Part shown: positions 2,703-59,126 of the stretch, one piece after another
Numbering within the stretch: the stretch's first letter is position 1
Layout of the letters: every line of letters starts with the position of its first letter
Source of the DNA: Bryobacteraceae bacterium
GTDB lineage: Bacteria; Acidobacteriota; Terriglobia; Bryobacterales; Bryobacteraceae
Reading direction: 5' to 3'
Length of the DNA: 64,000 bases
NCBI GenBank assembly: GCA_026002875.1
Contig: BPGE01000001.1
Coordinates: 1,240,001 to 1,304,000 of the forward strand
Position numbers and translations under genes: made by a program
The notes under the pieces: generated by a model
Database searches by the model: none
The model's input: the letters and a program-made list of their open reading frames with translations, nothing else
Told to the model about the DNA's origin: nothing

Positions 2703-3546
2703 ATTCCGGCCCCGCTTCCAGGATCCGGGAAGCGGCGAGAAAACCTGCGGACGGCTCGTTTCCGCAGCGCCCATCACAAACGATGTTTCCAATCGAATCA
2801 ATCACTTGGCCCCTCCGTGTTTGCGCGGCCGTGCAATACTCTCTGGTGCGGGGATACGAATCTCTGGCCAGATTCCCCCGCTTGGAACCGGACTGCCTGG
2901 TAGGGCGGCCGCTCCGGCGGCTTTCTCCATTCCAGGCAGCCTCGTCGCTTCGGCGGCAGGATAGCGGATGTCCCAAGGTAAGACCTGATGAGCCTGAACA
3001 AATACGGCCCATTCGGTGCCGCGCCTCGACGGAGGGCGGACACGCGGCCGGGCTGCGCATCGGCGCGTTCCGGTTGACACGCGCGAGGCCAACGGCGCCG
3101 GACTCCTCGAATGGATCCGGCGCCGCGCCCGCCTGCATCAACCCCTTCGCCCCGCCTCGACTTTCTCCACTTCCCGCACCCGAAGTGTATCCACAGAGAC
3201 GGGAATGGTAACTCATCGCCCTTTTTCCGCGCGCCCGGTTGATCGCCCGGGCAGCCTCCTCTGTCCCTGCAGCCTGACGGCGCAGGTACGCCCGTCGCGC
3301 TTGCGGCGGCAGGCGTGGAGGAGTGGACAGGGAAGGAAAACCAGCCGCCTGCCCGCTCCCAATGTCAACCTCCCCCGAGATTCACGTTTTGGAGCGGGCC
3401 GGCGGCCGAACTGCTTCCACTGTAAACCGCCCCGTCATGCGGCCGCCAGTGCGAACAGCGTGCCCAGCGGCGATTTCAACAGGATTTTTCTGTTTTCCCT
3501 GCAACGCGTTAGACTGTGAATGGCGTGGACGCCCTGTGCATAAAAC

Positions 3547-4704
3547 GTGAATGCCATGAAATGTTCTGGAATTGACGCCCTCACCGGCGAGGCTGTCGAG
3601 GTGCGCGGGGAGCGAGGCGTGATCACCTCCGTCGAACCGCTCCTGGACCGCCCTGCCTCGCTGCCCTGGCTGGCGCCGGGCTTCATCGACTTGCAGGTGA
3701 ACGGCTATGCAGGCGCCGACTATTGCTCGGCAGAGACGCCTCTGGAAGCGATCGAAGCATCGCTGAAGGCGCAGTTCGCCTGCGGCACGACGCGCCTGTT
3801 GGCCACGGTGATCACCGGCTCGCCGGAGGGCATGCTGGCGGCGATCCGCCATCTGGCGCGGGCGCGGCGCGAGCTGCCGCACGGAAGCGCGATCGCAGGC
3901 ATCCATGTCGAAGGGCCGTTCATTTCGCCGAAAGACGGCCCGCGCGGCGCGCACCCTCGCGAGCATGTCCGTCCGCCCGACCTGGACGAATACCGCCGAT
4001 GGCAGGACGCGGCCGAGGGCATGGTGCGCATGGTGACGATCTCGCCGGAATGGCCCGGCGCGCTCAAGTTCATCGAAGCCATCATTGGCGAGGGCGTCGT
4101 CGCGGCCATCGGCCACCTCGACGCCACGCCGCAGCAGATCGAGGATGCCGTCCGCGCCGGCGCGCGGATCTCCACGCATCTTGGCAACGGCTGCCATGCG
4201 GTGCTGCCCCGCCACCCGAACTATCTCTGGCATCAGCTTGCCGAAGACCGCCTGGCCGCATCGTTCATTGTCGACGGGATTCATCTGGGAGCCGACTTCC
4301 TCCGCGTGGCCCTGCGAGCCAAAGGCGTGGAGCGCAGCGTGCTCATCACGGACGCCGTCGCCCCGGCTGGATGCCCGCCGGGGCCTTACCGCCTGGGTGA
4401 AGTCGACGTCGAGCTCCATCCGGAAGGCAGGGTGACGCTGCGCGGCCTGCCGCGGCTGGCCGGCAGCGCGCTGCGCATGGACCGCGGCGTCGAGAACCTG
4501 ATGCGCATCGCCGGCCTGAGCCTGCAGGAAGCGCTCACCATGGCGGCGCGGAACCCGGCGCGTCTCGGCCGCATCGAGCACCGTCAGCGCGGCCTGCAGC
4601 CGGGCGAGCGCGCCGACGTGATCGAGTTTGATTTCGACCCGGCCGCGAAGTCCGTGCGCATCCGCCGCACCTGGCTGGACGGCCAGCCCGTCTGGCAGTG
4701 CTGA
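3547..4704 (+). CDS. NagA-like N-acetylglucosamine-6-phosphate deacetylase
   Basis: A 385-residue amidohydrolase-superfamily enzyme of the NagA type, which removes the acetyl group from GlcNAc-6-phosphate in amino-sugar and cell-wall recycling. Visible motifs: APGFIDLQVNG near residue 43, HVEGPF at 120-125 (metal-binding glutamate), IGHLDAT near 186, THLGN near 209 and LITDAVAPAG near 270 (catalytic aspartate). The HLGNG version, in place of the HLFNAM of the enterobacterial enzyme, suggests a divergent subgroup, so substrate is a family-level assignment. The frame opens with GTG at 3547; ATG at 3556 is equally possible, and neither has a strong ribosome-binding site. No amino-sugar neighbours: the gene stands alone, convergent with the OmpA-like gene. 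Confidence 0.82.
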   Translation: MNAMKCSGIDALTGEAVEVRGERGVITSVEPLLDRPASLPWLAPGFIDLQVNGYAGADYCSAETPLEAIEASLKAQFACGTTRLLATVITGSPEGMLAAIRHLARARRELPHGSAIAGIHVEGPFISPKDGPRGAHPREHVRPPDLDEYRRWQDAAEGMVRMVTISPEWPGALKFIEAIIGEGVVAAIGHLDATPQQIEDAVRAGARISTHLGNGCHAVLPRHPNYLWHQLAEDRLAASFIVDGIHLGADFLRVALRAKGVERSVLITDAVAPAGCPPGPYRLGEVDVELHPEGRVTLRGLPRLAGSALRMDRGVENLMRIAGLSLQEALTMAARNPARLGRIEHRQRGLQPGERADVIEFDFDPAAKSVRIRRTWLDGQPVWQC

Positions 4705-4759
4705 AAGCCGGCCTGGCCTGCATTCCGCCCGCCCCATTCAGGCTGCCTCCAACGACAAA

Positions 4760-4788
4760 GCCCGCTTCCGGCCGGGCCGGAAGCGGGC
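4760..4788. terminator. hairpin terminator between convergent genes
   Basis: Perfect 13-bp stem GCCCGCTTCCGGC / GCCGGAAGCGGGC (4760-4772, 4776-4788) with a 3-base loop. It lies between the ends of the NagA-like gene and the OmpA-like gene, so it can serve both directions. T-tracts are short (TTTG on the minus side, CTTG on the plus side). Confidence 0.6.
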
Positions 4789-4823
4789 CTTGCGATTCAG
4801 GTGCGCGGGAGCCGCGTCCCTGG

Positions 4824-6686
4824 TTACTTCGGGCAGCCGAGCCGCTTCAGCAGCTTCTCGTCGAGCTGCTTGGCGTCCTTGAACGCCGGCGGCATCTTGG
4901 TTCCCTTCGGCACCAGCCAGACCTCGACGCGCCGGTTCTGATCGGCTGTGGAGACCATCTGGCCGGCGCGCTCCTTCGAAGCGGCGCGGGCGGCGGTGCC
5001 GCAGAGGCCGGGCTGCATGTCGGAGACCTGCTCGGTGCCGACCCAGGTGACCTTGATGCGCGACTTGTCGACGTTGGCGCAGGTGCCGCCGCCGGCGGTA
5101 AGGACCGCATAGGCGTTCAGCACGCGGCGCATGTCGAGGTCGCTCGGCCGGCCGGTCCGGGAGACTTCGTCCTGATCGATGTGGCCGATCAGCACGACCT
5201 CGTAGTCGGGATCAGCAGCCTTCGGCGCGACTTCTTCGAGCAGGATGCGCTTGCCGCAGTTGTTGACGCGGGCGCTGTTCTTGCTGAAGATCACGTCGGA
5301 GTAGCGGATCGAAGTCGGCACAAAGTCGACCTTGATCTGCGCCGTGCCCGTGGCGGAAGCGCCGCGGTCGTCGGTGACGCGCACGGTGGCCGTGACGGTC
5401 TTGGACTGGATCTTGCCGCCCTGCTCGAACTTCACCGCCTTGCTGTCAAACGTGGCGGTGGCGGAAGTCGGGTTCTGCACGGCGCCCTCGGTGACCGTCC
5501 ACTGGAAGCTGATGGTCGAGCAGGCGCTGCCCGTGCCCTGCGCGCTCAGCGCCGCCGTCTGCCCGTACTGGATCGTTGCCGGGTTGGCGGTCACGTTGGA
5601 CACGGTGGGCGGGTTGTAGGGCTGCACGTTCAGCGACAGCGGAGGCGCCGAGGCGACGCGAACCGGGTGGTTCGGGTTGTTTTCGGCTTCGACGTCCAGC
5701 TCGATCTTGTAATCGCCCGCGCGGTCCGGCGTGAAAGAGAGCTCAGGCGAGTTGCCGCCCATCGGCTGGCCGTTGACCTTCCACTTGTAGGTGAGGGAAC
5801 GGCCCGCAGGGTCGCTGGCGCCCGAGTTGCGCACCGTGATGGCGCGGCCCTGGCACAGCGTGCCCGGCCCGACGCTCAGCGTTCCGGCGTTCAGAGCCGG
5901 CAGCGGACCCGGCGGCGGAGGCGGAGGCGCCGGGGCTTCCGCCTTGCGGCCGATGTAATAAGTGATGCCCGCGGTCGTCTGGATGCCGTGCAGCTTGTCC
6001 CCGCGCGGGATGTAGAGTCCGCCGTTCGGGTAGTCGGCCAGACGGAAGGTCGGATTCTTCGTCCAGAGGCCGCGGGCGTCGAAACGCAGGCCCCAGCGCT
6101 CGGTCAGATGCCACTTCAGGCCGCCGCCGTAGTTCATTGCGGGGTTGATGTTGGCGTCGAGGTTCTGCGCATACAGGTTGGCATTCAGCGGGCTCCTCGC
6201 CCAGCCCTTCGCCGAATCCGTCGGCGCCATATAGACCGCGGAGATGCCGGCGGTCAGGAAGGGGCGGATCTTCGAGCCGCGCTCCGTCCAATAAAAGACC
6301 GGGTTCAAGGAATACTGATAAATCCTGTGACCGAAGTCATACTGCGGCTGGCCGGGCGCCGCCGGCGACTGGAACCGCACGTTGTTCGTGCTGTACGTGA
6401 ACGCCTGTTCAAGGCCCACGTAGCGCCAGATGTTTTCCGTCACGCGGAAGCCGAAGGCCCCGCCGTTGACGAGTTTCGTCCCCAGGCCGCTCGAAACGCC
6501 CTGGAAGAAGCTGCCGCCGCCGAATGCATTGAGTTCGACCTTGTCTGGCAGCTCATCTCCTCCCGACGGTGGCTTGGCCGCCTGCTGCCCTGCCGCGCCG
6601 GGAACGAACACAAGCGCCACAAGAGCGACAGCAAGAATCCACCAACGGTAGCTGGAACAGTATTTGCCTGCACGTGTATAGTTCAT
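4824..6686 (-). CDS. OmpA-like outer-membrane protein with beta-barrel and PKD-like region
   Basis: About 620 residues from the ATG at 6684-6686, which has an AGGTG ribosome-binding site; an in-frame ATG at 6713 overlaps the upstream stop and is less likely. After a signal peptide (WWILAVALVALVFVPGAAGQ) comes an N-terminal region resembling an eight-stranded barrel (aromatic-rich repeats, fitting porin-like proteins), then a Pro-rich linker (PPPPPP), one or two immunoglobulin/PKD-like domains (residues about 270-450), and a C-terminal OmpA-like domain with IRYSDVIFSKNSARVN, LIGHIDQDE and NRRVEVWL. The OmpA domain normally binds peptidoglycan and anchors the outer membrane. It follows the Asp-box propeller gene by 16 bases, so both probably come from one transcript. 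The lipid- or peptidoglycan-facing role is inferred. Confidence 0.8.
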   Translation of the reverse strand: MNYTRAGKYCSSYRWWILAVALVALVFVPGAAGQQAAKPPSGGDELPDKVELNAFGGGSFFQGVSSGLGTKLVNGGAFGFRVTENIWRYVGLEQAFTYSTNNVRFQSPAAPGQPQYDFGHRIYQYSLNPVFYWTERGSKIRPFLTAGISAVYMAPTDSAKGWARSPLNANLYAQNLDANINPAMNYGGGLKWHLTERWGLRFDARGLWTKNPTFRLADYPNGGLYIPRGDKLHGIQTTAGITYYIGRKAEAPAPPPPPPGPLPALNAGTLSVGPGTLCQGRAITVRNSGASDPAGRSLTYKWKVNGQPMGGNSPELSFTPDRAGDYKIELDVEAENNPNHPVRVASAPPLSLNVQPYNPPTVSNVTANPATIQYGQTAALSAQGTGSACSTISFQWTVTEGAVQNPTSATATFDSKAVKFEQGGKIQSKTVTATVRVTDDRGASATGTAQIKVDFVPTSIRYSDVIFSKNSARVNNCGKRILLEEVAPKAADPDYEVVLIGHIDQDEVSRTGRPSDLDMRRVLNAYAVLTAGGGTCANVDKSRIKVTWVGTEQVSDMQPGLCGTAARAASKERAGQMVSTADQNRRVEVWLVPKGTKMPPAFKDAKQLDEKLLKRLGCPK

Positions 6687-51479: not shown

Positions 51480-52238
51480 ATGGCGGAACAGGAATGCCCC
51501 CTGTGCGGGGGGACGGGTTGGAAGATCGTCGAGCGCGAGGGTTTGAGCGCGGCCGAGCGGTGCCAGTGTCTCAACCGGGACCGGTCGGCGGAGATGCTCG
51601 AGAAAGCCCGCATTCCGGCCAATTACCGCAATGACCGGTTCGAGAACTTCTCCGACCGGGGCTCGAACGAGCTGCGCGGGATTCTCACGATGCTGCTGCG
51701 CTACTGCGACGAGTTTCCGGCAGTGGATCCGCCGGGGCTGCTGTTCATCGGCGATCCGGGCACGGGCAAGACGCACCTGGCAGTGGCGGTGCTGCGCCGG
51801 CTGATCGAGAACGGCTTCGCGGGCGTCTTCATGGATTACCAGATGCTGCTCGAACGGATCCGCGCCAGCTACGATCCGGCCAGCGGAGAGAGCCCGCGCG
51901 AAGCCTACGAGACGGCGCTCGAAAGCGAGGTGCTGCTGCTCGACGATCTGGGCGCCCACCGGGTGACCGACTGGGTGGAGGACACGGTGACGTCGATCAT
52001 CACGCACCGCTGCAACGAGCGGCGGCCGCTGATCGCGACCACGAACCTGCCCGATCCCGACATGGGCGGCAAGGTGATCGAGCGGCTGCCCGACGGGGCG
52101 CCGTCGCGCTATGACATCCGCACGACGCTGCTGGACCGGATCGGCATGCGGGCGCGGTCCCGGCTGTTCGAGATGTGCCGCGTGATCCGCATGCCGAAGG
52201 TGGACGATTACCGGATCGTGACGCGCAGGCAGGCGTGA
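51480..52238 (+). CDS. DnaC/IstB-like ATPase
   Basis: 252 residues. An N-terminal zinc-finger-like cluster (C6, C9, C28, C30 in CPLCGGTGW...RCQC) is followed by an AAA+ core with Walker A GDPGTGKT at 91-98, Walker B LLLDDLGAH, and a sensor region (PLIATTNLPD). This is the architecture of replicative helicase loaders (DnaC/DnaI); IstB of insertion sequences is close. No transposase lies beside it, so a chromosomal helicase loader is more likely. The product would act with DnaB in replication initiation. Starts with ATG at 51480, without an obvious operon partner. Confidence 0.85.
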   Translation: MAEQECPLCGGTGWKIVEREGLSAAERCQCLNRDRSAEMLEKARIPANYRNDRFENFSDRGSNELRGILTMLLRYCDEFPAVDPPGLLFIGDPGTGKTHLAVAVLRRLIENGFAGVFMDYQMLLERIRASYDPASGESPREAYETALESEVLLLDDLGAHRVTDWVEDTVTSIITHRCNERRPLIATTNLPDPDMGGKVIERLPDGAPSRYDIRTTLLDRIGMRARSRLFEMCRVIRMPKVDDYRIVTRRQA

Positions 52239-52254
52239 CGCGCGCAGCCGGGCT

Positions 52255-52758
52255 TCAGGCCGTGTCGCCGCTGGGGCCGTAGATGCCCGGAACTTTGCCG
52301 CCCATCGGGCGCAGGTAGGCGGAGAGCTGGCCGCGGTGGTGGATGGAGTGCTTCAGCGCCAGCGCCAGAAAATCGACGCCCTGCGCCTGCATCATCCCGA
52401 AGAAATCAACCGTCCGGGAAAATGTTTCGGCCGGCGCGGCGCGCAGCGCGGCGATGGAAGCCGGCAGATTGGTCTCGTACCAGGCGGCGGCATCCGCGCC
52501 GGTGCGGATGTTTTCGGGCACGCCGCCGGAATCGCCGCCATCGAACTTGCCCGCAAGGATCGAATCGAGGAACCACTTGTCGGCGCTGGCGATGTGCCAG
52601 GCGAGCTTCAGGGCGGGCATGGAGCGCGGGTCGGGCGAGTAGTCTTCCCTGCCCGAGGGCAGCGCGGCCAGCACGGCTTTGGTCGTCTTCATCTCCTGCT
52701 CGAACTGATCGAGGAGGTATCTGGCAATGGAAGCGGCCTGATCGGTCGACAGCGGCAT
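52255..52758 (-). CDS. DinB-family protein
   Basis: 167 residues of the DinB/YfiT four-helix bundle. Metal ligands are likely H55 (WHIASADKW) and the HSIHHRGQL cluster near residues 137-141, the classical three-histidine pattern. DinB proteins are metal-dependent thiol S-transferases or damage-inducible proteins; a specific substrate cannot be told. No leader, so cytoplasmic. Convergent with the DnaC-like gene. Confidence 0.85.
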   Translation of the reverse strand: MPLSTDQAASIARYLLDQFEQEMKTTKAVLAALPSGREDYSPDPRSMPALKLAWHIASADKWFLDSILAGKFDGGDSGGVPENIRTGADAAAWYETNLPASIAALRAAPAETFSRTVDFFGMMQAQGVDFLALALKHSIHHRGQLSAYLRPMGGKVPGIYGPSGDTA

Positions 52759-52867
52759 GGCAATTCCTTTTCAGTGCCATGATCGCATGAATCACGCTCT
52801 CTTGACGCGGCGGACCTCTCTGTCGCTTCTCCGATCCGGCAGCAGGCATATTGCCTGCGGGCCGGGC

Positions 52868-54475
52868 TCAGCGGGATGAAGAGCGGACCGTTGCCCTCGC
52901 CGTGCGCCTCTCCTTTGGGCTGAACTCGATCCGCTCCGCGCCGCTCGAGCGGGAGCGGAAGACGCTGGCGGCATTCACAAGGTTTGCCGCGCCCGAGGGC
53001 AGCGCGATCAGCCGGTACCGTCCAGGGGGAATGCCCGTGATTACGACGGAGCCGCCCTGATCGGACTCGCTGACGAACAGATCCGCAGCCGACGGATAGT
53101 CCGGAAACGGGTCGCGGCCGAGGAGGACAAAGACATAGCCGGCTGGCTGGCCCTTGTCATCGACGGTCTGAACCGATAGCTCCGCGGCATTGCGGCCGAG
53201 AAGCAGCTCGAGTGCGTGTTCGCCGGGGTGAAACACGCTGCGCAGCGCGTCGGCGCCATAAATGTCCGCGGAAACGGCGTAGTAGCCGGGCGGAGTGCGG
53301 AACTGCAAGAGCGAAGGCCCGCCGGCCACTGGCCCGAGTTCGAATGAGCCCGGACGTTGGGCCGTCATCATCGGCTTCTCGAATTCGAACAGAGGCCGTC
53401 CCAGCGGCTCGATCCAGAGCCGCAGCGGGGCGGGGAAGTCCTGGGCCTCGTCCTCTTTCTCGTTTTCTACGCGGATGCGTACTTTCTGCGTCAAAGGAGT
53501 GTGGAAAGGAATGGCTTCGATCCGCGCGCTGCGGTCGGAAATATCGATGGGAATCACGGCGAAAAGCGGTGTTGATTGGGCTTCTTTCCGGGAAGAATTC
53601 AGGACGTAATGCCCCTGGGGCAAACCGCAGACTTCCCAGGCCTGGCCCGGCTCCAGAGCGGTTTTGGCGATGCTGGCCGCGCCCAGGTAGAGGCCGCTGG
53701 TCAATTCCACGGAGACGGGTCCGTCCTGCGGGGCCCTGCCCTGGAGACAGTACGTGCGGGCCTCGACGAGCTCCCATTCCAGCCCGCCTCGCTCTTCGCC
53801 GGCCAGCACGGCAATGGAGCTGGCCAGCGCACGGTCTTCGACGCCCGGGTAGAAAGTGGGCGTCAGGCGCCGGGATGGGTCCGGGAGGGGATCGTCAGGT
53901 GCCCAGTTCCGGAGCCTCCACTGCGGAGCCGGAGGCTCGGCCAACAGAAGATAGGCGCCCTGATCGAGCCCGTCGAGGACGAAATTGCCCTCCTGGTCCG
54001 TTGCCGCAGCGATGGCGCGGTCCGGCAGCTTCCAGACGTCGCGGCCGGGGTCGCGCAGAGCGGAGATGCGAATGGAAGGAACGCCCTGGCCGGCTCGGTC
54101 CCGGATGCGGCCGGACAGCCGCGCGGCCTTTCGGAGGGGAATGACCAGGCCCTCGATTTTCTCGCGGTAGCGCAAATCGACCGGCACTTCCGGGGCGCGG
54201 TAGCCCGACCACGGAGCGACCATGAGGCCATAGCGGCCCGGCGGAAGGCCCTCGATCCGGAAGCGTCCGGATGAGTCCGTGCGGACGGGTTGGGGCTTCG
54301 GCGCGCCGAAGACGTGGATTTCGACTCCCTCGGCCGGCGCCTGGTCGGGCAGGCGGATCACTCTGCCTTCGATCGTGCGCAAGGACTGCGAAGGCTCGGG
54401 AGGCTGGGTGAGGCCGGCAGCCAGAGCAAGAACCGGGACGACGAGAATCAGCATTCGTTGGAATCGAAGCATCAT
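52868..54475 (-). CDS. carboxypeptidase-regulatory-like repeat protein, last gene of the peptide operon
   Basis: 535 residues with a leader (ILVVPVLALAAGLTQ) and several beta-sandwich modules: TIEGRVIRLPDQAPAEGVEIHVFG with GRFRIEGLPPGRYGL near residues 35-85, LSGRIRDRAGQGVPSIRISAL near 120, and a last GSVVITGIPPGRYRLIALP near 490. These resemble carboxypeptidase-regulatory-like or CNA-B folds used for surface binding and stalks in acidobacterial proteins. Two ATGs overlap; the ATG at 54473-54475 lies one base after the stop of the thioredoxin-like gene, so translation is coupled. Role in the peptide locus is unknown. Confidence 0.75.
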   Translation of the reverse strand: MMLRFQRMLILVVPVLALAAGLTQPPEPSQSLRTIEGRVIRLPDQAPAEGVEIHVFGAPKPQPVRTDSSGRFRIEGLPPGRYGLMVAPWSGYRAPEVPVDLRYREKIEGLVIPLRKAARLSGRIRDRAGQGVPSIRISALRDPGRDVWKLPDRAIAAATDQEGNFVLDGLDQGAYLLLAEPPAPQWRLRNWAPDDPLPDPSRRLTPTFYPGVEDRALASSIAVLAGEERGGLEWELVEARTYCLQGRAPQDGPVSVELTSGLYLGAASIAKTALEPGQAWEVCGLPQGHYVLNSSRKEAQSTPLFAVIPIDISDRSARIEAIPFHTPLTQKVRIRVENEKEDEAQDFPAPLRLWIEPLGRPLFEFEKPMMTAQRPGSFELGPVAGGPSLLQFRTPPGYYAVSADIYGADALRSVFHPGEHALELLLGRNAAELSVQTVDDKGQPAGYVFVLLGRDPFPDYPSAADLFVSESDQGGSVVITGIPPGRYRLIALPSGAANLVNAASVFRSRSSGAERIEFSPKERRTARATVRSSSR

Positions 54476-54476
54476 T

Positions 54477-55322
54477 TTAGAGACTCAGATCGGCGGCAAT
54501 CACACGAAATCCGCGCCGCCGAAGTTTCTCCAGCGCCAGTTCGCAGGTCCAGTCATCCAACGGACTGCAATCCAGAATCAGCCGGGCTGCGGGGCCAGCT
54601 TCGTAGCCGAGCCTCATGTCCAGCTCGGACAGAGGGATGTTCATTGCACCGGGCCAGGGATCAGCGGCGAAGGCCGGACGCTCTTCCACACTGACGACAC
54701 GAACGGCGGAATCACTCCGCGAGAGGGCCCGCACCTGCTCGGGGGAAAGCATCGGTTCTCCAGAGGGAAGCCGCCGCTTTCGTGGCTGCGGAGAACCGCT
54801 CCGCACGGCCGCAAGCACCTCCCGCTCGTCCTCCGCCGACAGCGCTCCATACCAGACAGAACGTACGGAGCCCGCCGCATCCAGCAGAGCCACCGCCGGA
54901 ACGCCCGCCGGGCGGCGGATCAGATCCCGGTATGTCTTCACGGCGTCGCAAGGCAATGAGTGCATGGCGAGGTACGAGCGGGACTCGCCGTTCCATTCAG
55001 GGAAAACCAGGATCCTCTGCAAATTCTGCTGCTGTGCTCTCTGCAACAGATTACGATGAAATCCGGCGCTCTGTACGCAGAAAACGCAGGACGGTTTCAG
55101 GATCAGGACGAGGGAGGGCTGCACTCGCTTTCCCATAGACGTAGACGGGAAAAGCGGCCTGCCCCGGCGAATCAGCGGAAGCGAACCGATGCCGGCTTCC
55201 GGGAACCGCGCGGCGGATGCACCGCCGCGCCAAACGCGCACCGCCACCCATCCGGTCATGGAGGCAGCGAGAGCAACGCCCGCCAGGACAATCCATTTCC
55301 TGATATCCGCAGCGATCATCAT
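54477..55322 (-). CDS. membrane-anchored thioredoxin-like protein with C-terminal rhodanese-like domain
   Basis: 281 residues. One N-terminal transmembrane helix (WIVLAGVALAASMTGWVAV, residues 10-28) is followed by a thioredoxin-like domain with C79 and C82 in the CVFC active-site motif, and PAGVPAVALLD as the likely cis-proline loop. The C-terminal third (WPGAMNIPLSELDMRL...LILDCSPLDDW) matches a rhodanese fold with a candidate active cysteine in LDCSP. It would face the periplasm and could make, break or isomerise disulfides. It follows the TonB-C-domain gene by 33 bases and ends one base before the next ATG, so it belongs to the six-gene unit with the Cys-rich peptides. Confidence 0.75.
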   Translation of the reverse strand: MMIAADIRKWIVLAGVALAASMTGWVAVRVWRGGASAARFPEAGIGSLPLIRRGRPLFPSTSMGKRVQPSLVLILKPSCVFCVQSAGFHRNLLQRAQQQNLQRILVFPEWNGESRSYLAMHSLPCDAVKTYRDLIRRPAGVPAVALLDAAGSVRSVWYGALSAEDEREVLAAVRSGSPQPRKRRLPSGEPMLSPEQVRALSRSDSAVRVVSVEERPAFAADPWPGAMNIPLSELDMRLGYEAGPAARLILDCSPLDDWTCELALEKLRRRGFRVIAADLSL

Positions 55323-55355
55323 GCCTCGAGTTCTGCCCGGCGCGGCGGGCCCAGT

Positions 55356-55925
55356 TCAAGGATGCTTCTTTTCGAATACGTTGGGATGTCTCATCCTGCG
55401 GTTTTCTTCGTCCGCCAGATCGACGGCCACGCCTTTTCCGTTACGGATTTCAAAGCGGAAGGCCAGCCGCCCGATGCGGATGCATTTCTCGCAATCCTCT
55501 ATGACGCCATTGCGCCTCATCGCTTCAATCGAGTGGAAGCGCCGGGTCTTGATTGTGTCGATGACGCTGCTGGCGGCCAAGGGATCAAAGGATTCGTGAA
55601 TCAGATGGTCCTGAACCCGGCCGTCCGGCTCCACGGCCAGCCCGATGACCACAAGACCCTGGCGGCCGCTTCTCTGTAATGGTTCCGGATAGGGAGGCAG
55701 AGGCGCGAACGTCGTGTTCATGCGGAACAGTTCAGAGCTGCCGCGGAGCACATCGCGCAATGATCCATACTTGTCCGAGAGCGCCTGCCTCGGCGCGTTG
55801 TTCTGAGCCTGGCCGGACAACAGGGACGGGAAAAGTGCCACCGAAAGCAGTGCAATGGCCCAAAAAGAGAAAAGGCGGGTTGCACCCTTTATGCGGCACA
55901 CGAATTCTCGCACAAGGCGAACCAT
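55356..55925 (-). CDS. TonB-C-domain protein, module A
   Basis: 189 residues from the ATG at 55923-55925. A hydrophobic leader (FWAIALLSVALFPSLLSG) anchors or exports it. Then a TonB C-terminal domain (YPEPLQRSGRQGLVVIGLAVEPDGRVQDHLIHES, FDPLAASSVIDTIKTRRFHSIEA) without the usual Pro-rich linker, and a conserved CEKC motif (C145, C148) unlike classical TonB. TonB-C domains contact outer-membrane partners, here probably receptors or the peptide machinery. It is 47 bases downstream of peptide A and paralogous to the 56465-56998 protein, with the same motif spacing. The four-residue cysteine pair matches the redox theme of the locus. Confidence 0.75.
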   Translation of the reverse strand: MVRLVREFVCRIKGATRLFSFWAIALLSVALFPSLLSGQAQNNAPRQALSDKYGSLRDVLRGSSELFRMNTTFAPLPPYPEPLQRSGRQGLVVIGLAVEPDGRVQDHLIHESFDPLAASSVIDTIKTRRFHSIEAMRRNGVIEDCEKCIRIGRLAFRFEIRNGKGVAVDLADEENRRMRHPNVFEKKHP

Positions 55926-55972
55926 CGACCAGATACCGCCGAATTCTGCGACGAGTGAAAGACGGGAGTGTA

Positions 55973-56182
55973 TTACCCGGGGCAGAGCTTCGTGTAAAAG
56001 AGCACGCATGTGCCGAAGGCGGCCCCCATGCAACCCTTGGATCCCGCGGTCGAGCCCCAGCAGTACGGTCCGTTGCAGCCTTCGGCGCACCCCAGGTAAG
56101 CAGAGCCCTGAAGCCCCGCAGCGCCGCCGGCGATCAGCGCGCAGAACACAACAAGTACCAACTTCTTTGTCATGCTGCTCAT
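55973..56182 (-). CDS. exported Cys-rich peptide A
   Basis: A 69-residue precursor. MSSMTKKLVLVVFCALIAGGAAGLQGSA is a signal peptide with a GSA-Y cleavage site, leaving a mature peptide of about 41 residues (YLGCAEGC...KLCPG) with six cysteines spaced C-x3-C-x4-C-x9-C-x7-C-x7-C, enough for three disulfides. AGGAAAGG-type SD (AGGAAAGGG) lies about 7 bases before ATG 56182; an in-frame ATG nine codons upstream is less likely. Near-identical architecture to the 57081 peptide. No antimicrobial or signalling function is proven; it may be a bacteriocin, a signalling peptide or a structural envelope peptide. Confidence 0.72.
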   Translation of the reverse strand: MSSMTKKLVLVVFCALIAGGAAGLQGSAYLGCAEGCNGPYCWGSTAGSKGCMGAAFGTCVLFYTKLCPG

Positions 56183-56223
56183 GGCGAATCCCTTTCCTGA
56201 GAGCGACATTTCGCCTCATCGCA

Positions 56224-56251
56224 ATTATGCCCCACGCGCAATTCGTGTCAA
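56224..56251 (-). promoter_or_regulatory. promoter of peptide module A
   Basis: Minus-strand TTGACA (56246-56251), 16-base spacer, CATAAT -10 (56224-56229). The sequence continues as in the module-B promoter, but the spacer holds GCGTGGGG instead of a G12 run, so it has near-ideal spacing and should be constitutively competent. Confidence 0.65.
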
Positions 56252-56464
56252 GAATTTTCTCAGTCAAAGACAGCGGGAAGTAAACGGCGAGACGCCCGGC
56301 AAACGCCCCTTGAGAACAGTCCCGGCCCGCGGGCTCAGATCATGTCTGTGTCCGAAGACTGCCGGTGTTCTGGAGGGCGGCCCGCCGCGCCCACTTGCCC
56401 GCCGCCCGCCAGCGCTTATTACCTGGACTCGGCGCCCGGCATTCCACATCCTGGCTGCACCATG

Positions 56465-56998
56465 TCAGTGTTTCGCGCTATCGTAGATGTTCGGGCGTTT
56501 TAGCCTGCGATTTTCCTCGTCAGCCAGATCGATGACAACACCCTTGCCGTTCTGAATCGCAAACCGGAAGGCAAGGCGGCTGATGCGGACGCACTTTTCG
56601 CAATCCTCCATTCCCAGAATCCGTTTCATCTCTTCAATCGAGTAGAAACGCCACATTTTCAGAGCTTCGATGACACTGCCGGCAGCAACGGGATCGAAAG
56701 ACTCATGAACCAGGTGTTCCTTCATCCTGCCGTCCGGGCCGACAACGAGCTCGACGACTACGAGTCCCTGGCGGCCGGCTCTCTGCAAAGGTTCCGGATA
56801 CGCAGGCAAGGGGGCGAATGTGGCGTCCAGCCGCAGGCGTCCGGAACTGCCGCGGAGGACATCGCGGAGTGGGCCGTACTTGTCCGAAAGTGTTTGACCT
56901 GGAGGAACGGCTGGTGACTGGCCGTACAGACCTGTCCAGAGAAGAAATGCGCATCCCGGCAGGATCAATGAACCGCCGTACGGCCATAGCCGAGGCAT
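56465..56998 (-). CDS. TonB-C-domain protein, module B
   Basis: 177 residues from ATG 56996-56998, with a GGAGAGGAA ribosome-binding site. A leader (LILPGCAFLLWTGLYG) is followed by the TonB C-terminal domain (YPEPLQRAGRQGLVVVELVVGPDGRMKEHLVHES, MWRFYSIEEMKR) and the conserved CEKC pair (C133, C136). Closely similar to module A over the whole length, showing that peptide and TonB-C genes duplicated together. It lies 82 bases downstream of peptide B. As in A, the classical Pro-rich TonB linker is missing, so it may not interact with ExbBD. Confidence 0.75.
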   Translation of the reverse strand: MPRLWPYGGSLILPGCAFLLWTGLYGQSPAVPPGQTLSDKYGPLRDVLRGSSGRLRLDATFAPLPAYPEPLQRAGRQGLVVVELVVGPDGRMKEHLVHESFDPVAAGSVIEALKMWRFYSIEEMKRILGMEDCEKCVRISRLAFRFAIQNGKGVVIDLADEENRRLKRPNIYDSAKH

Positions 56999-57080
56999 AG
57001 TTCCTCTCCGCCTGTGAGCCAGCTGGTCTCGGTCCTGGCGACCCCCGACTCGTGGCCGGCGATGGGTCTGCGCCAGGGGA

Positions 57081-57287
57081 CTACGGCGGGCAGAGCTGCG
57101 TGTAGAACAGGACGCAACCCTGAATGGTCTCCATGCACCCCTTCGAGCCCGCGTTGGAACCCCAGCAATACTGCGCCCTGCAACCATCTGCACAGCCGAG
57201 ATAAGCAGAGCCTTGAAGCCCCGCAGCACCGCCGGCGATCAGCGCGGACAACACAACAACTACCAACTTCTTTGTCATACTGCTCAT
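57081..57287 (-). CDS. exported Cys-rich peptide B, first gene of the operon
   Basis: A 68-residue precursor with the same leader as peptide A (MSSMTKKLVVVVLSALIAGGAAGLQGSA) and a mature part of about 40 residues with six cysteines: C-x3-C-x4-C-x9-C-x6-C-x7-C, one residue shorter between Cys 4 and 5 than peptide A. Conserved between the copies are YLGCA-GC, YCWGS-AGSKGCM, GCVLFYT-LCP (as split blocks). AGGAAAGG stands about eight bases before the ATG at 57285-57287; an upstream ATG at 57314 also has GAGG. It is downstream of the G12 promoter and so the gene most directly affected by it. Confidence 0.72.
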   Translation of the reverse strand: MSSMTKKLVVVVLSALIAGGAAGLQGSAYLGCADGCRAQYCWGSNAGSKGCMETIQGCVLFYTQLCPP

Positions 57288-57328
57288 GGCGAATCCCTTT
57301 CCTGAGAACGACATTTCGCCTCGTAGCA

Positions 57329-57360
57329 ATTATGCCCCCCCCCCCCGCAATTCGTGTCAA
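57329..57360 (-). promoter_or_regulatory. module B promoter with a G12 spacer
   Basis: Minus-strand TTGACA (57355-57360) and CATAAT (57329-57334) are separated by 20 bases, CGAATTGC followed by twelve G. Functional sigma-70 spacers are about 16-18 bases, so the present tract length would give weak activity; loss of two to four G would restore it. Confidence 0.65.
57335..57346. repeat. homopolymer tract C12 (G12 on the coding side)
   Basis: Twelve consecutive C on the plus strand between the -10 and -35 boxes of the module-B promoter. It is the longest G/C mononucleotide run noticed in the window and is prone to slipped-strand length change. Confidence 0.85.
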
Positions 57361-57821
57361 GAATTTTCTGAATTCCAAACACCGAGTAATCTCTGGCAAG
57401 CCCGCCGGGCAGAGGCTCCCTGAGAACAACTCCCGCGCGCAGGCTGGCGGATACTGCTGGTGTCCGAAGAAGGTCGGCCGCGCGGAAGGCGGCGAACCGC
57501 ATCCTTCTTCTTTCCGCCCGATTGACTGGCCGTGCCTGGTTGATGCTGGAGTCAGCGGCAGGAGCCGGCGTATCCCCTTGACGGGCGGCCGCCGCATCAC
57601 GGAGGCACCGGCGGGAGGGCGGCGAGGCGCAGGCGCCCTGTTCCGATCACCAGACCTGGCGGCGGGTGTGCATGTCGCGATCGCTTGAAGACGGGCGCCG
57701 CGGCGGGTAACCCCGGCATGGCAGGCTTCGCCGTTGGCAAATGGCATATCAATTCCTTTCCCTTCGCCGCGAGGATGCGATAGAGTATGAGCCAGCAGGA
57801 GCGTAAGGAGTCATCCCAGCC
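57361..57821. other. non-coding gap upstream of the peptide operon and the oxidoreductase gene
   Basis: About 460 bases between two divergent units. Its left 200 bases (to about 57480) are similar to the region upstream of the module-A promoter, showing that the duplication included upstream DNA. The right part holds an AAGGAG site before the oxidoreductase ATG and nothing else that can be supported. Confidence 0.5.
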
Positions 57822-59126
57822 ATGAACCGCCGCAGTTTTGTCATGAGCGCCGCCGGGGCCGCAGGGGTTCCGCTGTTCGGCAGTCCGAATGAGACGATCC
57901 GCGTGGCCGTGGTCGGCCTGCGAGGGCAGGGCAACAGCCACATCCGCGCCTACCAGCGGATGCCGAATGTCGAAATCGCCGCGTTGGTCGACATCGACGA
58001 GTCGATCCTCGATCGCCGGCTCGAGGAGGTGGAAAAGGCCACGGGCAAGAAGCCGGCGCGCTTCGTCGACATCCGGAAGATGCTCGAAGACAAGACGATC
58101 GATTGCGTGTCGATCGCCACGCCGAACCACAGCCATACGCTGCAGACCATCTGGTCGCTGCAGGCGGGCAAGCACGTCTACATCGAGAAGCCGTGCTCGC
58201 ACAATGTTTTCGAGTCGCGCCAGATCGTGGCAGCGGCGAAGAAGTACGGCAAATGCGTGCAGCACGGCGTGCAGGCGCACTCGACCGAAGGGCTTCAGGA
58301 GGCCAAGAAGCTCATCGACGAGGGCGTGATCGGCGACGTCTACATGGCGCGCGGACTCTGCTTCAAGTGGCGGGACACGATTGGCCGCGCAAAAGAAGAG
58401 CCCGTGCCGGCGGGCGTGCACTACGACCTGTGGCTGGGACCTGCGCCCGTGAGGCCGTTCACGCGGAACCGGTTCCACTACAACTGGCACTGGTTCTGGG
58501 ACTACGGCAACGGCGACTTCGGCAATCAGGGCATCCACGAAGTGGACATTTGCCGCTGGCTGCTCGACGTGCGTTTCCCGACGAAAGTCAGCGCCATGGG
58601 CGGGCACTTCATGTTCGACGACGATCAGGAGACGCCCAACGTGCTGGTGGCGACCTATGAGTTTGATGTGGCTGGCAAGAAGAAGTTCATGAGCTTCGAG
58701 GTGCGCCACTGGATGACCAACAGCGAGGCAGGCATCGGCGAGCGGCCGGGCGGCGGCGGGGGAGGCGGCAACACGGTGGGCAACATCTTCTACGGGTCAA
58801 AAGGCTACATGGCCATCGACGGTTACGACACCTACAAGGTGTTCCTGGGCCGGAAAGCCGAGCCCGGTCCGTCGAAGAGGGCCGGCGGTTCTCACCACGC
58901 CAATTTCATTGACGCCGTCCGGGCGGGCAAGCCCGAGATGCTGAACGGGCAGATCGAGGAAGGTGCGATCAGCTGCACACTGATGCACCTGGCCAACATC
59001 AGCTACCGTGTGGGGCGCAGCCTGAAGATCGACCCGGCGACCGGAGAGATCCTGGGCGACTCCGAAGCCGCGGCGCTGATGAAGCGGCAGTACAGGAAGC
59101 CGTTCGTGGTCCCAGACAAGGTCTGA
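57822..59126 (+). CDS. Gfo/Idh/MocA family oxidoreductase with twin-arginine-type leader
   Basis: 434 residues. MNRRSFVMSAAGAAG is a twin-arginine-type signal and GLRGQGNSHIRAYQRMPNVEIAAL the start of the NAD(P)-binding Rossmann fold. The EKPCSHNVFESRQIV segment includes the conserved lysine used by Gfo/Idh/MocA enzymes. The C-terminal region has the alpha/beta domain that forms the active site (GNGDFGNQGIHEVDICRWLLDVRFPTK). Such enzymes oxidise sugars or inositols and several from Acidobacteria are exported. Substrate unknown. An intrinsic terminator follows at 59157-59195. Confidence 0.85.
   Translation: MNRRSFVMSAAGAAGVPLFGSPNETIRVAVVGLRGQGNSHIRAYQRMPNVEIAALVDIDESILDRRLEEVEKATGKKPARFVDIRKMLEDKTIDCVSIATPNHSHTLQTIWSLQAGKHVYIEKPCSHNVFESRQIVAAAKKYGKCVQHGVQAHSTEGLQEAKKLIDEGVIGDVYMARGLCFKWRDTIGRAKEEPVPAGVHYDLWLGPAPVRPFTRNRFHYNWHWFWDYGNGDFGNQGIHEVDICRWLLDVRFPTKVSAMGGHFMFDDDQETPNVLVATYEFDVAGKKKFMSFEVRHWMTNSEAGIGERPGGGGGGGNTVGNIFYGSKGYMAIDGYDTYKVFLGRKAEPGPSKRAGGSHHANFIDAVRAGKPEMLNGQIEEGAISCTLMHLANISYRVGRSLKIDPATGEILGDSEAAALMKRQYRKPFVVPDKV

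Follow-up and report, generated by a model that had tools for sequence, protein, structure and literature searches.

A six-gene acidobacterial locus of duplicated cysteine-rich exported peptides with a TlpA-class thioredoxin, envelope-type partners, and possibly switchable promoters

We analyzed a 64,000-nucleotide (nt) stretch of the genome of a Bryobacteraceae bacterium (Acidobacteriota; assembly GCA_026002875.1, contig BPGE01000001.1, positions 1,240,001 to 1,304,000), hereafter the window, which holds at positions 52868 to 57360 a six-gene locus built around two small exported peptides rich in cysteine. On balance, the locus is probably a cassette dedicated to the disulfide maturation and envelope handling of small, disulfide-rich secreted peptides, possibly with promoters switched by slippage. 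It belongs to a wider, apparently undescribed class of loci in which a thioredoxin gene accompanies a gene for an exported Cys-rich peptide. Below, G000 is the window genome (4.86 Mb), G004 is a metagenome-assembled genome (MAG) of the same genus, and L numbers denote fetched loci. A re-check of the open reading frames (ORFs) confirmed that the locus is real and verified the coordinates, the minus strand of all six genes, and the leftward order given in a preliminary description made from the sequence:

57329..57360, minus strand: promoter B, with TTGACA (57360-57355), a 20-nt spacer with G12 at its end (57346-57335), and CATAAT (57334-57329).
57081..57287, minus strand: exported peptide B, 68 amino acids (aa), six mature Cys; ORF with 72% identity to its G004 orthologue and a ratio of nonsynonymous to synonymous substitutions (dN/dS) of 0.16.
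56465..56998, minus strand: TonB-C protein B, 177 aa, CxxC (EDCEKC); Pfam TonB_C at 4.8e-8.
56224..56251, minus strand: promoter A, TTGACA-N16-CATAAT, flanks as in B, tract broken to GCGTGGGG, 11/12 consensus matches.
55973..56182, minus strand: exported peptide A, 69 aa, six mature Cys plus one Cys in the signal peptide; ORF.
55356..55925, minus strand: TonB-C protein A, 189 aa, CxxC; Pfam TonB_C at 1.2e-5.
54477..55322, minus strand: putative membrane-anchored TlpA/ResA-class thioredoxin (CVFC, residues 79-82) with a degenerate rhodanese-like C-terminal domain, 281 aa; model and alignment.
52868..54475, minus strand: exported carboxypeptidase-regulatory-like (transthyretin-like) protein, 535 aa; Pfam PF13620 (CarboxypepD_reg) at 4e-21, in agreement with the preliminary description.

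The duplication claimed in that description stands for the peptide and TonB-C genes, and alignment of the two copies showed that the duplicated unit is larger, comprising the promoter as well. An orthologous locus in G004 (L044) carries one peptide and one TonB-C gene with the same flanking DinB and ATPase genes, and a second, diverged G004 locus of the same gene order (L045) encodes a peptide 30% identical to peptide A, with a TonB-C protein at 42% and a carboxypeptidase-regulatory-like protein at 35% identity. Between copies and species, dN/dS was 0.15 to 0.21 for the peptides, TonB-C proteins, thioredoxin, and carboxypeptidase-regulatory-like protein (several dS values exceed 1), so these behave as real, constrained genes. 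Since the peptides themselves are under purifying selection (0.16 to 0.21) and an orthologous locus exists in the same genus, the arrangement is more than chance. Among 41 genomes of the genus, family, and order (self included), peptide relatives outside the own genome were clear only in G004, and the peptide family occurs in two of the five searched genomes of the genus. A profile scan of contigs that used the TonB-C alignment recovered just two loci, which both belong to the G004 MAG. Peptide, TonB_C protein, and thioredoxin-rhodanese protein occur together in G004, G082, G166, G080, and G315, in line with the coherent design proposed earlier; homologues elsewhere and co-occurring neighbors in related genomes, the two things that the preliminary description had asked for, were both found, the close peptide family itself being confined to G000 and G004.

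As that description had it, each peptide combines a signal-like N terminus with a six-Cys pattern; by eye, each is also preceded by a plausible ribosome-binding sequence. The mature Cys spacing is 3-4-9-6-7 in peptide B and 3-4-9-7-7 in peptide A, whose seventh Cys lies inside the signal peptide. Structure prediction, suggested at the outset, gave a fold for the thioredoxin (see below) and a poor model for the peptides (AlphaFold2, four-row alignment, predicted local distance difference test [pLDDT] 53), and for this reason we claim no disulfide pattern. A PDB sequence search with the peptide profile returned antibody-type chains alone (E of 0.22 or worse). Two family candidates were rejected: PT-VENN (Pfam, 0.0089), whose match to a window peptide spans the signal peptide only, and the fulvocin C-related model NF033852, which matched peptide B only, with 12.7 bits against a 35-bit cut-off (E of 0.17), and did not recur in the wider class. 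NVEALA peptides form small exported-peptide loci in Bacteroidetes that resemble this locus in general style only, and the kinship suggested by the preliminary description was not borne out: the NVEALA model of NCBIfam (TIGR04149, as we take it to be numbered) gave no row for the two window peptides (E≤5) or for 33 peptides of the wider class (E≤0.1). No PADLOC model of anti-phage defense matched any of the six locus proteins (E≤0.1), and a viral-contig scan with TonB-C protein A as query gave no match.

The fifth protein in the leftward order had been described as thioredoxin/rhodanese-like. No Pfam family matched it at E≤1, and its predicted structure (AlphaFold2, pLDDT 73; compared with Foldseek/VIA) points to a thioredoxin fold of the TlpA/ResA/CcmG class (Foldseek, 3.5e-6). 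Model residues 52-177 align with 3gl3, a DsbE (Z 13.3, root mean square deviation 2.6, 125 aligned), in a structural comparison that covers residues 46-178 only and not the C-terminal half. A CxxC and a Pro are aligned in all eight seed thioredoxins, the latter presumably being the cis-Pro of the fold, and the N-terminal helix resembles a membrane anchor. The rhodanese half was recovered as an alignment, from which the L154 row was left out, and as matches to PF00581 below its gathering score of 22.2 in two relatives (L152, 17.3 bits; L162, 14.7 bits). Because these scores fall short of the cut-off and the window protein has no match, we use "rhodanese-like" as a label only. SdbA, presumably an oxidase, is among the structural matches of the model, and its PDB title says reductase.

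To place the locus in a wider context, we searched 200 genomes of the order with a profile of the eight thioredoxins. The better-scoring group provided a test set of 40 regions with 44 non-seed places (three places at ca. E 5e-9 or better, G070:C84, G086:C33, and G148:C591, were left out), and 20 regions around generic thioredoxins served as controls; these were matches at E of ca. 1e-7 to 1e-6, picked in list order with gaps and thus not at random. A peptide was counted under a strict rule: signal-like start, Shine-Dalgarno-like site, a mature part with at least four Cys and a Cys content of at least 5.5%, and a position on the same strand within 2.5 kb. Exported Cys-rich ORFs lay beside the thioredoxin at 26 of the 44 places versus 2 of 20 controls (Fisher p of 1.9e-4), or at 23 of 41 when three peptides flanked by two thioredoxins were counted once (p of 4.7e-4), both p values being rough because half of the controls (10/20) came from a single genus, g23. 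Without four weak places (L119-L122) the count was 24/40. One of the two control positives, L140 (CGWC, nine-Cys peptide), looks like a class member and was still counted as a control. As background, strict-rule ORFs numbered only four across 620 kb (one strand counted), including 297 kb from the opposite strand of the test regions. A search across the phylum (396 genomes, only six candidates scored per genome) gave at least 24 non-window places, of which 20 were fetched; 13 of these had a strict-rule peptide, in several cases with its gene directly adjoining that of the thioredoxin.

The class peptides are highly variable. The 33 that we compared, to which the family scans were applied (peptides of the phylum-wide places lie outside them), fell into 20 sequence clusters (E≤0.01), and none had a convincing Pfam or NCBIfam family; single-member rows (NCBIfam TIGR03055, 0.0014; Pfam PT-VENN, 0.0089, and Conotoxin_I2, 0.0092) were discarded as chance. 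At four loci (L047, L083, L046, and L092), the thioredoxin partner is a long exported protein of CxxxxxCC-type segments, knottin-like by eye, with 26 to 32 Cys in three of them. No description of the thioredoxin-peptide pairing, or of poly-G promoters, in Acidobacteria was found in the open-licence literature as judged by title and the start of the abstract, and neither there nor in the family libraries did a named system match the locus, as the preliminary description had supposed.

The combination with a rhodanese-like domain recurs. We saw at least 11 rhodanese-type loci (the window, L044, L045, L089, L099, L102, L110, L148, L152, L154, which is partial, and L162), a count of those seen and not of all, given that the unfetched place G547:C54 also matches the rhodanese part. 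Ten of them (all but L154) have an exported Cys-rich peptide, and nine (all but L152 and L154) have a TonB_C domain beside or fused to the rhodanese-type protein. The earlier assignment of both adaptors to TonB-C proved right, since PF03544 (TonB_C) scored above its gathering score in both window proteins and in all six tested proteins from other loci; by eye, no long Pro-rich linker was seen. The association is not background, because each of eight genomes has only 8 to 21 TonB_C matches. In G082, peptide, TonB-C, thioredoxin-rhodanese, and carboxypeptidase-regulatory-like genes are present twice in that order. At L162 (G373:C322, 2379-3260), a single protein fuses TonB_C and a rhodanese-like domain, and neighboring genes encode an exported Cys-rich peptide and, by eye, an ADOP-like permease. 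ADOP-like (duplicated permease) genes, also named by eye, lie near the thioredoxin or rhodanese gene at L088, L096, L114, L116, L154, and L162, and are a possible export route, conceivably a MacB-like one.

Clustering of neighbors gave two recurrent thioredoxin partners with exported-type N termini, TIGR03435/DUF3738 and CarboxypepD_reg-like proteins. Within 2.5 kb of the thioredoxin they occurred at 15 and 10 of 52 places, respectively (the window excluded and the seven other seed loci, with eight places, included), versus 0 and 1 of 20 controls, counts that favor the test loci in that both hidden Markov models were built from them. Genome-wide numbers of TIGR03435 provide an independent check. 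In the 6.7-Mb genome G012, the only two matches flank a thioredoxin-like protein (without CxxC) and a 13-Cys exported peptide (L101, G012:C1:4418900-4427300), a clean setting for the study of this family. TIGR03435 had no match in G000 or G004, and the window locus carries the CarboxypepD_reg protein instead. This alternative third gene, the variability of the peptides across the class, and the poly-G tract of the promoter went unmentioned in the preliminary description, which is incomplete to that extent.

A consensus scan of window positions 52000-58500 found two sigma-70-like sites, promoter A being the better. Promoter B was missed because its 20-nt spacer is too long for the scan; it is the sequence of promoter A with an N20 spacer, near-identical flanks, and G12 where A has the 8-nt broken tract GCGTGGGG. 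By consensus sequence, the homopolymer lies between the -35 and -10 elements. The genome has only three runs of ≥10 G, and none is longer than G12. Tracts of G8 or G9 follow TTGACA before the three thioredoxin-linked peptide genes examined in G004, one of which encodes an unrelated peptide, and a peptide locus of G022 has a G7 tract; copy A aside, no such arrangement was present in the 200 nt upstream of the other 27 of the 33 peptides. When all tracts of G8 or longer were fetched (36 in G000 and 20 in G004), 14 of the 56 had a perfect TTGACA within 22 nt upstream (ca. 0.08 expected from the TTGACA density of the window), with 11 to 20 nt from TTGACA to the best -10-like hexamer. Nine of these 14 promoters had an exported Cys-rich ORF within 300 nt downstream versus 2 of the 42 other tracts (p of 1.2e-5), and without the four known before the tract search the figures were 5/10 versus 2/42 (p of 0.0017). 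Two more qualify by eye, L172 (a Cys-rich frame with an in-frame stop) and L203/L212 (the Cys-rich ORF is the second gene); the remaining three are L164, L166 (the L203 orthologue, cut by the contig end), and L207.

Some of these promoters precede peptide genes away from any such thioredoxin; no other class thioredoxin matched in G000 at E≤1e-4. At L210 (G000:C1:1848000-1859000, 3020-6214), two tandem units at G000:1852-1854 kb each encode a 113-aa exported protein with 11 to 12 mature Cys and an exported protein of ca. 325 aa, each unit under its own TTGACA-polyG promoter (G8 and G9). G004 has a related pair (L216), and L211 holds a looser one. Nothing convincing in Pfam or NCBIfam matched the exported 325- to 377-aa partner of these 11- to 13-Cys proteins, and a beta-propeller, our impression of it, was dropped for want of support from either library.

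Taken together, these parts suggest the following mechanism. The peptides, with Sec-type signal peptides, would enter the periplasm reduced, and the membrane-anchored TlpA-class thioredoxin encoded in the locus would handle their disulfides, by oxidation or isomerization. The TonB-C and transthyretin-like proteins would act later in the envelope, as carriers, docking proteins, or outer-membrane adaptors, and the peptides may be secreted beyond the periplasm. For each peptide gene, transcription would start at a TTGACA promoter with a spacer made up, now or in the past, of a poly-G tract, and slippage in the tract would change the promoter spacing. With its 20-nt spacer, peptide B is predicted to be weak or off, and peptide A, with a 16-nt spacer and a broken tract, to be locked on. 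We infer the switching from the precedent of porA and from the difference in tract length seen between paralogues A and B.

There is more than one possible reading of what the peptides do. They may be antagonistic, a bacteriocin-like arsenal of disulfide-rich toxins for which the TonB-C, transthyretin-like, or DUF3738 partner would provide immunity or export, which would extend the cassette reading and is compatible with it; we find this plausible, if short of probable. Their small size, export, diversity, duplication, patchy presence within the genus, and possibly switchable promoter would all suit such a role, as would the dedicated oxidoreductase BdbB of the sublancin operon (PMC6391423) and the candidate clusters for ribosomally synthesized and post-translationally modified peptides (RiPPs) with mauE/mauD homologues (PMC7794033). 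However, judged from the sequences, no convincing bacteriocin family matched in Pfam or NCBIfam and no exporter gene was recognized among the six genes with Pfam, and the peptides evolve no faster than their neighbors within the genus (dN/dS of 0.16 to 0.21 versus 0.15 to 0.21), giving no hint of an arms race there. Surface features are typically subject to ON/OFF switching, and peptides displayed on the envelope by the cassette as signaling or surface-structural molecules (pheromone-like, adhesive, or sensory) would agree with envelope-type TonB_C and transthyretin-like partners and with the resemblance of the possible switch to porA (PMC3899988). This reading is somewhat doubtful, though: none of the six genes encodes a receptor or regulator, and the short peptides showed no sorting signal. 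Very improbable, by contrast, is that the neighborhood is a by-product of heavy paralogy. CarboxypepD_reg has 77 matches in G000, and TIGR03435 has 110 in G080, but TonB_C has 13 in G000 with two at the locus, both matches of TIGR03435 in G012 flank the thioredoxin and peptide, and generic thioredoxins are virtually free of such neighbors.

The thioredoxin could also be a reductase and not a maturase; the Cys-rich peptide would then be its partner in redox sensing or electron relay, or its substrate would be the CxxC in the TonB-C protein. Most TlpA-class proteins of known function are reductases, the fold is of that TlpA/ResA/CcmG type, and a DsbD-type protein was found (DsbD_TM in G000) and VKOR was not in G000, G004, and G082, so that a reducing or isomerizing role fits better than an oxidizing one. 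All four TonB-C proteins from the genus conserve the CxxC, yet its position is not kept in L099, L102, and L110, and most fetched thioredoxin regions have no TonB-C match; as a whole, this alternative seems unlikely. As for the promoters, the poly-G tract may be a fixed element, recognized by a regulator or as a DNA structure, that marks a regulon for exported Cys-rich peptides, an option that we take seriously without favoring it. Of the 14 promoters, 13 have a tract of 8 or 9 G (8 being the search minimum), a constancy that such a fixed element would fit as well, and in the orthologues L203 and L166 the tract is exactly G8 and the flanks are identical. Against it stand the difference between copies A and B within near-identical flanks and the near absence of other runs of ≥10 G from the genome. 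The redox setting and constant tract length just given, along with the uneven origin of the controls, weigh against a switchable maturation cassette, as do several further points: the strict rule leaves 18 of the 44 places without a peptide, though relaxed rules find one at some of these; the CxxC is missing from L148 (CEFS), the thioredoxin-rhodanese protein of L089 (CPYS), L101, and the second thioredoxin of L104; the TonB_C-rhodanese protein of L162 has no thioredoxin in the same protein; and G12 could be a sequencing or base-calling error.

MauD offers a parallel to the locus, being a thioredoxin-like protein that is anchored in the membrane and dedicated to a disulfide-rich protein of the periplasm. 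Five of 30 class thioredoxins matched TIGR02661 (MauD) weakly (best 4.8e-6, given without its score relative to the cut-off), whereas the window protein gave no row at E≤5 and neither methylamine dehydrogenase nor MauE is encoded among the six genes. MauE reportedly may act in disulfide formation, and the exact role of MauD is described as unclear (PMC7794033). The sublancin operon of Bacillus subtilis similarly joins a Cys-containing secreted peptide and a thiol-disulfide oxidoreductase, BdbB, and sublancin is glycosylated and is exported and processed by SunT (PMC6391423); unlike it, our locus has Sec-type signals, an anchored TlpA-class thioredoxin, and TonB-C and transthyretin-like partners, with no glycosyltransferase or SunT-like gene among its six. 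By analogy, it may work like sublancin/BdbB and the mauD/mauE-associated candidate RiPP clusters, membership in either not being established. Bacterial cis-defensins are also small, exported six-Cys peptides, with one acidobacterial member reported (PMC11561630), but the Cys pattern given there, CX(2,18)CX(3)CX(2,12)CX(4,17)CXC, occurs in neither window peptide and in two of the 33 class peptides. Promoter B resembles that of porA of Neisseria, where poly-G lies between -35 and -10 and tract length correlates with transcript level (PMC3899988). The acidobacterial case differs in being a set of promoters, most of them before exported Cys-rich genes, and is known here from sequence alone.

Acidobacteria are among the commonest soil bacteria, and these small secreted proteins of theirs are unannotated, with a convincing family match for 0 of the 33 peptides. 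More speculatively, disulfide-rich secreted peptides may form a large and so far undescribed class in the phylum, with many of the loci encoding their own TlpA-class thioredoxin and exchangeable envelope partners (TonB-C, transthyretin-like, or DUF3738). In at least one genus these peptides, some of them without a nearby thioredoxin gene, would form a poly-G-promoter regulon and act as a phase-variable arsenal with a different random subset in each cell; in this full form we hold it tentatively, as something that may well fail. Provided that the pairing is real, such peptides could be traced across the phylum through the thioredoxin, and TIGR03435/DUF3738, a multiplied family of unknown function and a recurrent partner of the same thioredoxin subfamily, gains a functional context. 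Switching of the poly-G promoters, if real, would amount to a phase-variation system not reported before in the phylum, to judge from a limited literature search.

Further G8-G10 runs of G000 (L185, L187, L188, L192, L199, L202, L204-L206, and L209) lie within copies of a GC-rich element (around ggatgcagccctcg) that apparently form an interspersed repeat family, and five G runs at L183 lie in another repeated element. In G004, two Cys-rich genes behind poly-G promoters look interrupted, with an in-frame stop at G004:C24:47390 (L172/L214) and a shifted start frame at G004:C16:80677 (L167/L216), and are either decayed genes or assembly errors.

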